64,000 bases of DNA from Vampirovibrionales bacterium. GTDB lineage: Bacteria; Cyanobacteriota; Vampirovibrionia; Vampirovibrionales; Vampirovibrionaceae. The notes under the pieces were generated by a model, which worked only from the letters and a program-made list of their open reading frames with translations, was not told the DNA's origin and ran no database searches. Shown here one piece after another: positions 1,706 to 5,345 of this stretch. Numbering within the stretch: the stretch's first letter is position 1; every line of letters begins with the position of its first letter. A program made the translations under genes and the position numbers. The DNA lies in assembly GCA_029262635.1 (NCBI GenBank), contig JAJCZA010000012.1, forward strand, positions 62,001-126,000, written 5' to 3'.

Positions 1706-3313
1706 TTACTCATTTCGTTTTAGCTTACTGTGCCAAATGCCGTAAAAGGCATAAATGAGAAAGCCGATCACAAGCCACCAACCCAGGCGAAACCAGGCGG
1801 CCTGACTGAGTTGAACCATCATGAAAATCATGCAGGCCATACCGGTAATGGGCACCCACGGCACCCATGGGCACCGGAAGGTTTCGGGGAGGTTCAGGGT
1901 TTTAATTTGAAGGAGTTTCCAGGTTGGCATCGTGACCAGCAAGCTCCCCAGGAGCCAAAGCGTTATTTGAACCGGGTTGTTATCAGCCATAAAGCCAACG
2001 CTAACCAGCCCGAGCCCGATGGCAATAGCAATCACGTAACCTGTACTTTTTAGGTCGGTCTTGTTTTGCTTGTAACGGAGAATCAGGGTGCTTGCGGATA
2101 CCATGGTGAAGGCAAACAGGGTACCAATGCTGACCATGTGATGGAGATCTTCCATGGGGGCAAAGGCGGCAATCGTAGCGGCAATCAGGCCGGTTAAAAT
2201 GGTGGCGTTTACGGGGGTTCTGAATTTGGGGTGAATCCGGGCAAACCATGGAGGTAAGAGTCCGTCTCTGGCCATAGAAAAGTAGATGCGAGGCTGTGAC
2301 ATCAGTAAAATCAACACAACTGTGGTCAAACCTGCTACGCCGCCAATGCCAATCAGCGTTTTAGCCCAATCCAGATTAACCGACCCAAAGGCGGCGGCAA
2401 GTGGTGCGCCCTGATCAATTTCCTGATAAGGGACCATGCCGGTAATAACGGCAGCAACGGCAATATAAAGCAAAGTGCAAATGCCAAGGGAGGCCATAAT
2501 GCCGATGGGCATATTTTTTTGCGGGTCTTTCACTTCTTCGGCGGCGGTGGAAACGGCGTCAAACCCAATATAAGAGAAAAACACCAGTGCGGCACCTGTG
2601 AAAATCCCATCCCAGCAAAAAGCGCCTTCGGGGCAGGCGGTTCCGTTGGGGCCATAAGGGGTAAAGGGGTGCCAGTTAGCCGGATCAATGAAAAAGAGTC
2701 CGGCAAGAATAACAAATAGAACGACGCCGACTTTAACAGCGACGATAAAACTATTAAACTGGGCCGATTCCTTAATCCCAATAGCCAGCAGTGCCGTGAG
2801 GCAAAGAATCATGATGCCAGCGAGTGCGTTAATATGATAATCTCCTCCCCAGGGCATTTGAAGAGGTAAATGGATAAGCCAGTCAGGCAGGTGGACTAAT
2901 TGGCCCAAGTATTCTGCCCAGCCGACGGCTACCGCTGAGGAGCCAATGGTGTACTCTAATACTAAATCCCAGCCGATAATCCAGGCAAATAGTTCGCCGA
3001 CACTGGCATAGGAATAAGTATAGGCTGAGCCAGAGATTGGCAGGCGAGAGGCAAATTCCGCATAACACAAGGCGGCCAGGATACAGGAGATGCCCGCAAA
3101 GACATAAGATAGCATAATGGCCGGACCAGCCGCTTCTTTGGCGGCGGTGCCGGTTAAAACAAAAATCCCGGCGCCAATCATAGCGCCTACGCCGATGGCG
3201 GTTAGGTCAACAGCGTTAAGTGCCCGTTTGAGTCCTTCCTTTTTCTCTTTAGACTCCTCTAGAATAGTGGCTAGCGGTTTGGTGCGGAAATAAGGGTTCT
3301 GTTGCTCACTCAT
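1706..3313 (-). CDS. APC-family amino acid permease (cationic amino acid transporter-like)
   Basis: About 12 TM segments; LTAIGVGAMIGAGIFVLTGTAA signature. Confidence 0.92.
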   Translation of the reverse strand: MSEQQNPYFRTKPLATILEESKEKKEGLKRALNAVDLTAIGVGAMIGAGIFVLTGTAAKEAAGPAIMLSYVFAGISCILAALCYAEFASRLPISGSAYTYSYASVGELFAWIIGWDLVLEYTIGSSAVAVGWAEYLGQLVHLPDWLIHLPLQMPWGGDYHINALAGIMILCLTALLAIGIKESAQFNSFIVAVKVGVVLFVILAGLFFIDPANWHPFTPYGPNGTACPEGAFCWDGIFTGAALVFFSYIGFDAVSTAAEEVKDPQKNMPIGIMASLGICTLLYIAVAAVITGMVPYQEIDQGAPLAAAFGSVNLDWAKTLIGIGGVAGLTTVVLILLMSQPRIYFSMARDGLLPPWFARIHPKFRTPVNATILTGLIAATIAAFAPMEDLHHMVSIGTLFAFTMVSASTLILRYKQNKTDLKSTGYVIAIAIGLGLVSVGFMADNNPVQITLWLLGSLLVTMPTWKLLQIKTLNLPETFRCPWVPWVPITGMACMIFMMVQLSQAAWFRLGWWLVIGFLIYAFYGIWHSKLKRNE

Positions 3314-3578: not shown

Positions 3579-4691
3579 CTATTGGTTTTCCGCTACGTTG
3601 CCACCACTGATGATGCTAACGGTTATTTTTCCGGCGGTTGGGCGGCAGTCCTCCTGGCATAAGACGGGTGAGACGGCGACACCGGCTGCACCTTCCACGT
3701 GGGTGTTGAGGTCGGATTGTACAAAATTCAGTCCTTGTTCGATATCTGCATTGGGAACCTCTCGAAGAGAAACCCTTAGATGTTCTAATCGATGACGGCT
3801 TTTTGCTTCGAGTGTCTTTACTCGAATGGCGTCACCCAATGGCGATGCCATGTCGGCCAGGCGCAAGCCAATAAAGCGGAGAGTCAGGTTTTTCAAGCCC
3901 GGAATTGTTTTTGATGCGGAACCGAGCCCATTGGCTATTCCCGTGAGTAATCCACCGCCGCCGACCGGGACAATCACATCAAGTTGGTGTGTTTCCGGCT
4001 TTAATAAAGGTAACACCTGTTGGGCCAGTTCAAGACCGATGGTACCTTGCCCTGAGATGACATCATGATCCAGAAAAGGGTCAATGTAATGCCCTTTTAG
4101 GCTTTGGGCATGGGTGCGGGCCTCCTCAAAGTTTTGGCCTTGTAAAACCAGCTGGGCATTAACGTCCTGAGCTTTTAGGTTTTCTATTTTAGCCAGCAGT
4201 TTTTCTTGTTTGGTTGGCAGTACGTTTGTCGGGATGACCAGTTGAACTTGTTTAGGGCGAAGCAACTCGGCGGCTTTTAAAACGCCCATGGCGTGATTGC
4301 CTGTTGACACCGTGACAAATGAATTTTTTCCTTGTTCCATGGCTCTCGACATCGAAACAACAGCACCACGAACCTTATAAGCGCGTGTACTGGTTAAGTC
4401 TTCTCGTTTATAAAACAGTCCGGGTTTTTTGCGGGAGGCCTGAAGGGGAGTAATGGCGCCATGGGTTTCTCGAGGCAGACCGGTTAAGCGTAACGCATCG
4501 ATATAAGGTAACAATCGTTTCTGCGCTTGAAGGCTATTGAGATAAAGAGAGTCCAAATCATGGTTGGCCGCCTGACCAAAATGCGGGAAAAAAGCTTGGG
4601 AACCCATAGAATGCGTTTGTTGAGTCAAGCGGTTATTATTTATGGTCGGAGGTCTTTGGGTTGTTACGGATTGAAATGAGAGTGTCGTCAT
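3579..4691 (-). CDS. ilvA: Threonine dehydratase-like PLP enzyme
   Basis: KREDLTSTRAYKVRGA PLP-lysine region, STGNHAMG, VPVGGGGLLTG; Ile-rich leader peptide upstream supports ilvA over a catabolic enzyme. Confidence 0.8.
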   Translation of the reverse strand: MTTLSFQSVTTQRPPTINNNRLTQQTHSMGSQAFFPHFGQAANHDLDSLYLNSLQAQKRLLPYIDALRLTGLPRETHGAITPLQASRKKPGLFYKREDLTSTRAYKVRGAVVSMSRAMEQGKNSFVTVSTGNHAMGVLKAAELLRPKQVQLVIPTNVLPTKQEKLLAKIENLKAQDVNAQLVLQGQNFEEARTHAQSLKGHYIDPFLDHDVISGQGTIGLELAQQVLPLLKPETHQLDVIVPVGGGGLLTGIANGLGSASKTIPGLKNLTLRFIGLRLADMASPLGDAIRVKTLEAKSRHRLEHLRVSLREVPNADIEQGLNFVQSDLNTHVEGAAGVAVSPVLCQEDCRPTAGKITVSIISGGNVAENQ

Positions 4692-4718: not shown

Positions 4719-4755
4719 AAAAAACCGCCGGTGATGTGAAGCATCCCGGCGGTTT
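4719..4755 (-). terminator. Intrinsic terminator/attenuator hairpin between leader peptide and ilvA
   Basis: Minus strand AAACCGCCGG-GATG-CTTCA-CATC-A-CCGGCGGTTTTTT: perfect 10 bp GC-rich stem plus inner stem and U-run, about 28 nt before the ilvA ATG. Confidence 0.88.
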
Positions 4756-4781
4756 GTGTATGTTAAGTTCTTCTTAGCGTA

Positions 4782-4856
4782 TCAACAGCAATCAGAACTC
4801 ACCGGGGAAGCAGTGAGCATAATAATAATTTGAATGCTGTTAATCAATGTGTTCAT
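4782..4856 (-). CDS. Candidate regulatory leader peptide MNTLINSIQIIIMLTASPVSSDCC
   Basis: 24-codon ORF with 5 Ile codons (including three tandem ATT) directly upstream of the terminator and ilvA; Shine-Dalgarno weak. Confidence 0.72.
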   Translation of the reverse strand: MNTLINSIQIIIMLTASPVSSDCC

Positions 4857-4924
4857 AAGAATAATCGAAATAAAAATCCTGATTAAATTTAGAAAAAATG
4901 TAAGGTTTATTATTTAACCAGATT

Positions 4925-4940
4925 TTTGAAACGAGGTCAA
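4925..4940 (-). promoter_or_regulatory. Candidate sigma70 -35 and spacer start for ilvA leader transcript
   Basis: Minus strand TTGACC (4940-4935), then 17 nt, then TTAAAT; upstream of leader ATG. Confidence 0.4.
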
Positions 4941-4988: not shown

Positions 4989-5238
4989 AAATAAAAGTGT
5001 GTCTGTATTGGAGGCTCAGCCTCCAGAAGGAAGGACTAATTGAAACTAATTCTCAATTGAGAGGTATCTTAGCCTAATTGAGAATTAGTTGCAATAGTTT
5101 GTTTTTCCATGCTCTAAATATTAATCAAAGAGTTGTCTTTTCGGCTGCGATACCGCTTTTTAAATTTCCTTAATTTAAAGGGTTTACAGAATAGAAACCT
5201 CTCGTTTATACTGCTATCTATACTATTTAAAAATCTAT

Positions 5239-5310
5239 TCCTCAGTAGCTCAATGGTAGAGCATGCGGCTGTTAACCGCAGGGTTGTAAGTTCGAGTCTT
5301 ACCTGGGGAG
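5239..5310 (+). tRNA. tRNA-Asn(GTT)
   Basis: Cloverleaf read by eye: acceptor TCCTCAG/CTGGGGA, anticodon arm TGCGG-CTGTTAA-CCGCA, T arm GTAAG-TTCGAGT-CTTAC, discriminator G; 72 nt. Confidence 0.97.
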
Positions 5311-5345
5311 ATTTTTTTTGTTTTATTTACAGGGGGCGTTCTATC

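Follow-up and report, generated by a model that had tools for sequence, protein, structure and literature searches.

A short isoleucine-rich open reading frame and a terminator precede a dehydratase-like gene

The window, by which we mean the whole 64,000-nucleotide stretch of DNA analysed here, carries on its minus strand a possible promoter, a 24-codon open reading frame (ORF), an intrinsic terminator and the gene for a threonine-dehydratase-like enzyme, in this order. The features at the locus are as follows.

4909..4940, minus strand: candidate promoter, TTGACC (4940-4935), 17 nt, TTAAAT (4917-4912); read by eye, weak
4782..4856, minus strand: leader peptide ORF, MNTLINSIQIIIMLTASPVSSDCC followed by the stop codon; a homologous BCAA-codon ORF precedes ilvB in eight relatives (alignment A3), and in G017 by layout
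4719..4755, minus strand: intrinsic terminator hairpin AAACCGCCGGGATGCTTCACATCACCGGCGGTTTTTT with a T6 tract, −22.2 kcal/mol; segment 4 is at 4731-4725
3579..4691, minus strand: threonine-dehydratase-like PLP enzyme of 370 aa, the putative regulated gene; orthologues lie directly 3' of ilvC in most relatives
1706..3313, minus strand: amino acid permease; best NCBIfam match BcaP (branched-chain transporter), below the cut-off

The ORF starts with an ATG at 4856 and its TGA ends at 4782. Codons 5, 8, 10, 11 and 12 are Ile codons (5 of 24), all of them ATT and three consecutive. The terminator begins 26 nt after the ORF, and the dehydratase ATG, at 4691, follows its T run after a further 27 nt. 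The preliminary description of this DNA had reported such an arrangement, with a 24-codon minus-strand ORF holding five Ile codons including three consecutive ATT, a spacing of 26 nt to a hairpin with a TTTTTT run and the dehydratase ATG about 28 nt later (27 nt as counted here), and each of these elements is present in the sequence. When the 64-kb window was scanned for strong terminators that follow a short ORF with an amino-acid run, this locus was the sole match among five terminators. The Ile codons of this single sequence prove little by themselves, because ATT triplets abound as well in the AT-rich sequence that immediately precedes the ATG; the homologous leaders in relatives described below removed the doubt over chance Ile codons.

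At the spacing usual for a ribosome-binding site, no Shine-Dalgarno-like sequence was found ahead of the leader ATG; the corresponding pairing amounts to −0.5 kcal/mol versus −5.3 kcal/mol for the dehydratase. The leader ATGs of several relatives look equally poor in this respect by eye. The candidate promoter TTGACC-17-TTAAAT was missing from the list produced by a consensus promoter scan. Just upstream of the leader's promoter region, at 4985-4940, lies a terminator-like palindrome AGCCTCGT...ACGAGGCT with a T-rich end; the tRNA-Asn gene near it (5238-5311) is on the opposite strand.

The leader can adopt two mutually exclusive structures

The pairing elements of the leader are distributed between the ORF and the terminator.

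4836..4845, minus strand: outer stem P1, 5' arm GATTAACAGC, inside the ORF; three pairs with both-side changes across relatives
4811..4817, minus strand: segment 1, CTCACTG, immediately after the codons ATT-ATT-ATT-ATG; partner of segment 2
4798..4807, minus strand: segment 2, CCCCGGTGAG, inside the ORF; alternative partners segment 1 or segment 3
4794..4799, minus strand: antiterminator extension, 5' arm AGTTCT
4780..4789, minus strand: outer stem P1, 3' arm GCTGTTGATA, including the leader stop codon
4766..4771, minus strand: antiterminator extension, 3' arm AGAACT
4745..4752, minus strand: segment 3, CCGCCGGG, terminator 5' arm and antiterminator 3' arm

The terminating state contains three pairings, namely the outer stem P1 (GATTAACAGC/GCTGTTGAT), an inner protective hairpin between segments 1 and 2 (CTCACTG/CGGTGAG, −7.6 kcal/mol) and the terminator. 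In the alternative state segment 2 pairs with segment 3, and this helix is lengthened by AGTTCT:AGAACT. The complete antiterminator (CCCGGTG plus AGTTCT with AGAACT plus CGCCGGG) is calculated at −18.8 kcal/mol compared with −22.2 kcal/mol for the terminator, so that two structures of similar energy exclude each other. The pairing previously suggested between a CCCCGGT stretch of the leader and the terminator 5' arm can form, as CCCGGTG with CGCCGGG. AGTTCT and AGAACT, which had been noted as a further complementary pair, can also pair (4799-4794 with 4771-4766), but they do not make up a separate element and instead extend the antiterminator beside segment 2:segment 3. The 219-nt leader folds with a z-score of −5.9, and none of 200 shuffles folds as well.

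Homologous leaders precede ilvB in the same order

Leaders homologous to that of the window precede ilvB in eight genomes of the order (G001, G005, G006, G007, G008, G009, G010 and G013). Their ORFs are packed with Ile, Leu and Val codons, 9 to 17 in each (for example in the peptide MNILNSVVIILVVILSGPAGGI), and ACCGCCGG...CCGGCGGT after the BCAA-rich ORF corresponds to the terminator stem of the window. A covariance model of the eight relatives' leaders, with the window left out, matches the window at 4850-4720 on the minus strand with 61.5 bits (E=4.9e-12 over 64 kb); leader sequence identity is 57-66%. The ilvB leader of a further genome, G017, is alike in layout and different in sequence: its segments 2:3:4 read GGCTCGGT:ACCGAGCC:GGCTCGGT and its P1 CTTTACAA:TTGTAAAG, all having been replaced together. 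The ilvB genes of G014 and G015 have no such leader in front. When the 600 nt upstream of ilvB were searched in 30 genomes belonging to other orders of the class, in which ilvB may not be the first gene of its operon, no leader with a terminator was found. The covariance model gave weak matches (E 0.04-1) in further families of this class. A search of Rfam, covering amino-acid leaders, ilvB motifs, riboswitches and the T-box, yielded no relevant match at E<=5 for the window or for the leaders of the relatives.

The leader sequences were trimmed and realigned (alignment A3), with nine sequences entering the pairing counts. The terminating structure is paired in 95.3% of cells and has a covariation score of 0.120, against 0.065 for shuffles and at most 0.045 for slid versions; its 10-bp terminator stem is paired in all nine sequences. 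For the alternative structure, 90.5% of cells are paired and the covariation score is 0.162 against 0.066 for shuffles, a value reached by one of 500 shuffles. Changes on both sides of a pair occur at three pairs in P1 and at four pairs in the antiterminator extension. Segments 2, 3 and 4 hardly vary among the nine aligned sequences, and support for their pairing therefore comes from G017. The extension helix of the relatives, TTGAATC:GATTCAA, covaries and lies in a shifted register with respect to the window; the window's extension is thus a functional counterpart of it and not a column-by-column match. Conserved codons, compensatory changes and competition between terminator and antiterminator, which the preliminary description had proposed to look for in related genomes, are accordingly found there. 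Homologues that keep the hairpin and lack the codons, the case named as speaking against an attenuator, were not seen, as all nine ilvB leaders found in the order keep an Ile/Leu/Val-rich ORF.

The relatives also contain a second small ORF between the attenuator terminator and ilvB (L017, L018, L019, L020, L023, L024, L025 and L026; for example MTTHTFSNFQAISKLLNRVVVLLLG...). It is Val/Leu-rich in several of them and reaches or overlaps the ilvB start, which looks like translational coupling. The idea that the dehydratase N-terminus represents a fusion with this small ORF, both starting with MTT, was rejected because the resemblance is too short. Several genes of G014 open with tandem ATG codons, giving MMM to MMMMMM (L078: 4061, 5352, 5791, 8797 and 9811), as does ilvB of G015.

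Codon selection and computed switching

In the relatives, the seven or eight codons between Asn-Ser/Asn-Asn and a conserved CTC all specify Ile, Leu or Val. The eight-codon block spans 24 columns, of which the eight second codon positions never vary and every other column does (p=1.4e-6 from a plain count that ignores kinship). Invariance confined to second positions fits selection for Ile, Leu and Val codons in frame rather than for RNA structure alone. The length of the block changes in multiples of three. The window has a block of six codons, IQIIIM, two of them non-BCAA, and this shortening could be the start of decay.

The effect of a ribosome on the leader was computed by folding a transcript that stops short of segment 4. 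In this calculation 29 nt round the ribosome were kept unpaired, and pairing of segment 3 with upstream sequence served as the readout. Computed antitermination of the window leader is 0.70-0.72 with the A site at codons 2-14, 0.06-0.08 at codons 15-19 and 0.18 in the absence of a ribosome. None of 300 dinucleotide shuffles attains the contrast between stalls at Ile codons 10-12 and later stalls, which is also insensitive to footprint size. A ribosome on the stop codon is predicted to cause partial antitermination (0.55), so that the repressed state would depend on stop-codon dynamics or ribosome release. The computed drop in the relatives also falls directly after the last codons of the Ile/Leu/Val block, and the switch of the window is equally sharp. 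Without a ribosome the relatives' leaders favour the antiterminator, indicating that this third state is not conserved.

The dehydratase-like gene has probably lost its operon and its pathway

The 370-aa protein encoded downstream of the leader has a clear PALP domain (102.6 bits, cut-off 35). No C-terminal regulatory domain was found in it, and its best match among the NCBIfam threonine ammonia-lyase equivalogs, at 111 bits, lies below the curated cut-off of 378.75. The protein is conserved as a family in the order, with orthologues in 12 of the 17 other genomes (41-50% identity over matched stretches). The operon of the relatives reads ilvB-ilvN-ilvC-dehydratase, ilvB and ilvC being assigned by family model and ilvN by position and look only. 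In the window, 265 nt with no terminator-like site reported separate the dehydratase gene from the permease gene, and the two are possibly co-transcribed.

No ilvB, encoding the acetohydroxyacid synthase (AHAS) large subunit, was detected in the organism's own genome (G000, 95.9% complete); the best match, at 22.5 bits, is a gene resembling a 2-oxoacid oxidoreductase. A true ilvD (dihydroxyacid dehydratase) was also not found in G000, whose sole ilvD-family match scores 497 bits, below the cut-off. Since most relatives with a true ilvD (>700 bits) also carry a second ilvD type, the 497-bit match is read as a putative Entner-Doudoroff dehydratase paralogue. Ketol-acid reductoisomerase is present in G000 (G000:C5:611897-612835; L073 7895-8944) and is of the paralogue type, as judged by score and not by tree, that genomes without AHAS have kept; the enzyme is retained in members of the order where the AHAS large subunit was not found.

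Since neither an AHAS large subunit nor a true dihydroxyacid dehydratase was detected in G000, the dehydratase is unlikely to contribute to isoleucine synthesis there. The earlier argument that the codon content fits the gene as the committed step to isoleucine thus does not apply to this genome. Its gene content makes the organism a probable Ile/Val auxotroph, in which the 370-aa enzyme may degrade threonine or serine instead. We speculate that a signal of Ile starvation would be sensible were the permease co-transcribed.

Leaders with other amino-acid runs occur elsewhere in the order

Following weak covariance-model matches revealed leaders with runs of other amino acids. In G000 itself, a second unit with the leader MNRNTNTYFYFYFFSRACRSCED and the terminator CAAAGACCGCAGGCC..GGCTTGCGGTCTTTG precedes a DAHP synthase gene (L179; G000:C7, about 62.8 kb, minus strand). 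Its computed switch falls at the end of the Phe/Tyr block, which none of 200 shuffles matches. Phe/Tyr leaders with terminators precede DAHP synthases across the order, including those of G000, G003, G004, G005, G006, G007, G008, G010, G011, G012 and G013 (handles besides L179: L164, L165, L166, L167, L169, L172, L173, L174, L180 and L211), and Trp leaders stand before two further DAHP synthases (L178 and L212). In most Phe/Tyr leaders the computed antitermination falls just past the last Phe/Tyr codon; those of G003 and G007 are less clear.

A paralogous protein family of no assigned function provides another set, many of its members being preceded by a short ORF with a Met or Trp run and a terminator (Met: L112, L115/L193, L186, L188, L194, L202 and L205; Trp: L203 and L207; aromatic: L192/L213 in G000). 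The family has no match in Pfam, NCBIfam or the PDB, and the predicted structure of a Met-leader protein was of low quality (pLDDT 57). Computed switching of these Met and Trp leaders is less clear, and reading them as attenuators is for this reason a lead only. A BCAA-rich leader MNRNATTLNNQHRVVIIDVAVIIPITGLPGINLH with a terminator was also seen before an uncharacterised 134-aa protein in G011, a genome without ilvB (L111 5640-5772; G011:C104).

Taken together, the balance of these observations tilts towards leader-peptide attenuation being a general means of amino-acid sensing across the order, one that is lacking or cannot be recognised in the sister orders sampled and that would control ilv, DAHP synthase and the paralogous Met/Trp-leader family. 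Its origin or spread would probably have been independent of the systems of Proteobacteria and Actinobacteria, and it may be retuned upon pathway loss, as in the window.

A model for the leader and its alternatives

Homology, codon conservation, the alternative pairings and the computed folding response all support the candidate put forward in the preliminary description, a ribosome-mediated attenuator. On this sequence-based evidence, the leader is very probably a transcription attenuator that senses charged Ile-tRNA and descends from the attenuator of an ilv operon. The ribosome would trail RNA polymerase along the leader ORF. Scarcity of Ile-tRNA would make it stall at the ATT codons and cover segment 1, leaving segment 2 (with AGTTCT) to pair with segment 3 (with AGAACT); no terminator would form, and the dehydratase gene, perhaps with the permease gene, would be transcribed. 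When Ile-tRNA is plentiful, the ribosome would move on and cover segment 2, allowing segments 3 and 4 to pair and transcription to stop. In the absence of translation, the segment 1:segment 2 hairpin and P1 would prevent segment 2 from reaching segment 3, which would again favour termination. The attenuator seems originally to have served an ilvB-ilvN-ilvC-dehydratase operon and to have been retained at the last gene after ilvB and ilvD were lost, with most of the leader's Val and Leu codons disappearing and chiefly Ile left. Here we infer translation of the ORF, actual termination, the response to Ile and the order of the evolutionary events.

The leader might instead be a relic, an ilv attenuator stranded before the dehydratase gene that is neither translated nor responsive and whose terminator merely lowers expression. 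The failure to find ilvB and a true ilvD in G000, the shortened BCAA block with its two non-BCAA codons and the leader ATG without a Shine-Dalgarno-like site would all fit a relic. The ORF, the T6 tract, the terminator, the protective hairpin and the antiterminator are nevertheless all intact, the computed switch is as sharp as in the relatives, and Ile codons still stand directly before segment 1. Moreover, AGTTCT:AGAACT differs in sequence and register from the helix of the relatives and yet pairs, as if it had been maintained. We regard loss of function as unlikely on these grounds.

The strong structure of the leader (z=−5.9) and its covarying P1 would also suit a riboswitch or protein-binding attenuator, in which P1 and the inner hairpin form an aptamer for a small molecule or a protein and the ORF is incidental. 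Such an aptamer would not account for invariance limited to second codon positions of the Ile/Leu/Val block, for length changes that preserve the frame or for the leaders with other amino-acid runs at other genes of the order (Phe/Tyr before DAHP synthase), and Rfam holds no match; we consider it very improbable. Still less credible is an ordinary terminator of an upstream transcript combined with a chance ORF, a combination that AT-rich surroundings with many ATT triplets and the second terminator-like palindrome upstream, at about 4985-4940, might bring to mind. The homology to leaders in eight genomes, recovered by a leave-one-out search, is in our judgement already enough to refute it, and the codon-position switch is reproduced by none of 300 shuffles.

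Comparison with known attenuators

The mechanism proposed here is the textbook one, placed in a lineage where an attenuator seems undescribed. In Enterobacteria, ilvGMEDA and ilvB (with ivbL) are preceded by a short Ile/Val/Leu-rich ORF and by antiterminator and terminator hairpins that exclude each other. Likened by general description, the window shares the codon-rich ORF and the mutually exclusive hairpins; it differs in having segment 2 inside the ORF, a lone dehydratase gene downstream and mostly Ile codons. The Phe/Tyr leaders before DAHP synthases follow the same logic as the pheA- and trp-type leader attenuators of Proteobacteria, from which they differ in regulated gene and lineage (sequence was compared through Rfam only).

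Most descriptions of leader-peptide attenuators concern Proteobacteria and Actinobacteria. According to a survey in 2010, no leader-peptide system had been demonstrated in any other group until that survey's own example from Firmicutes (PMC2965389). In a search of the open literature, we found no report of a leader-peptide attenuator in cyanobacteria or melainabacteria. A conserved set of attenuators in an order related to cyanobacteria would extend the reach of the mechanism, and its leaders hint at the regulation of genes without known function. The window would add an attenuator that has outlived the operon it served and drifted towards one of three amino acids, so that the evolution of codon specificity could be put to the test.

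Among published motifs, ilvB-OMG has 41 representatives in various phyla, with a BCAA- (and Thr-) rich uORF before ilvB, and is a presumed attenuator (PMC10272879). The BCAA-rich uORF is shared by description, with no match of the Rfam ilvB motifs to the window or the relatives' leaders at E<=5. In the Corynebacterium ilvB-II motif, a BCAA-rich uORF, usually of 15-17 codons, overlaps a first stem before ilvBNC, with a terminator just downstream; the loop of this stem and one arm of the terminator together make the antiterminator (PMC10272879). This uORF, likened by description, is the closest published relative in function to the leader of the window, although it belongs to a different phylum and the ORF of the window is longer, with 24 codons.
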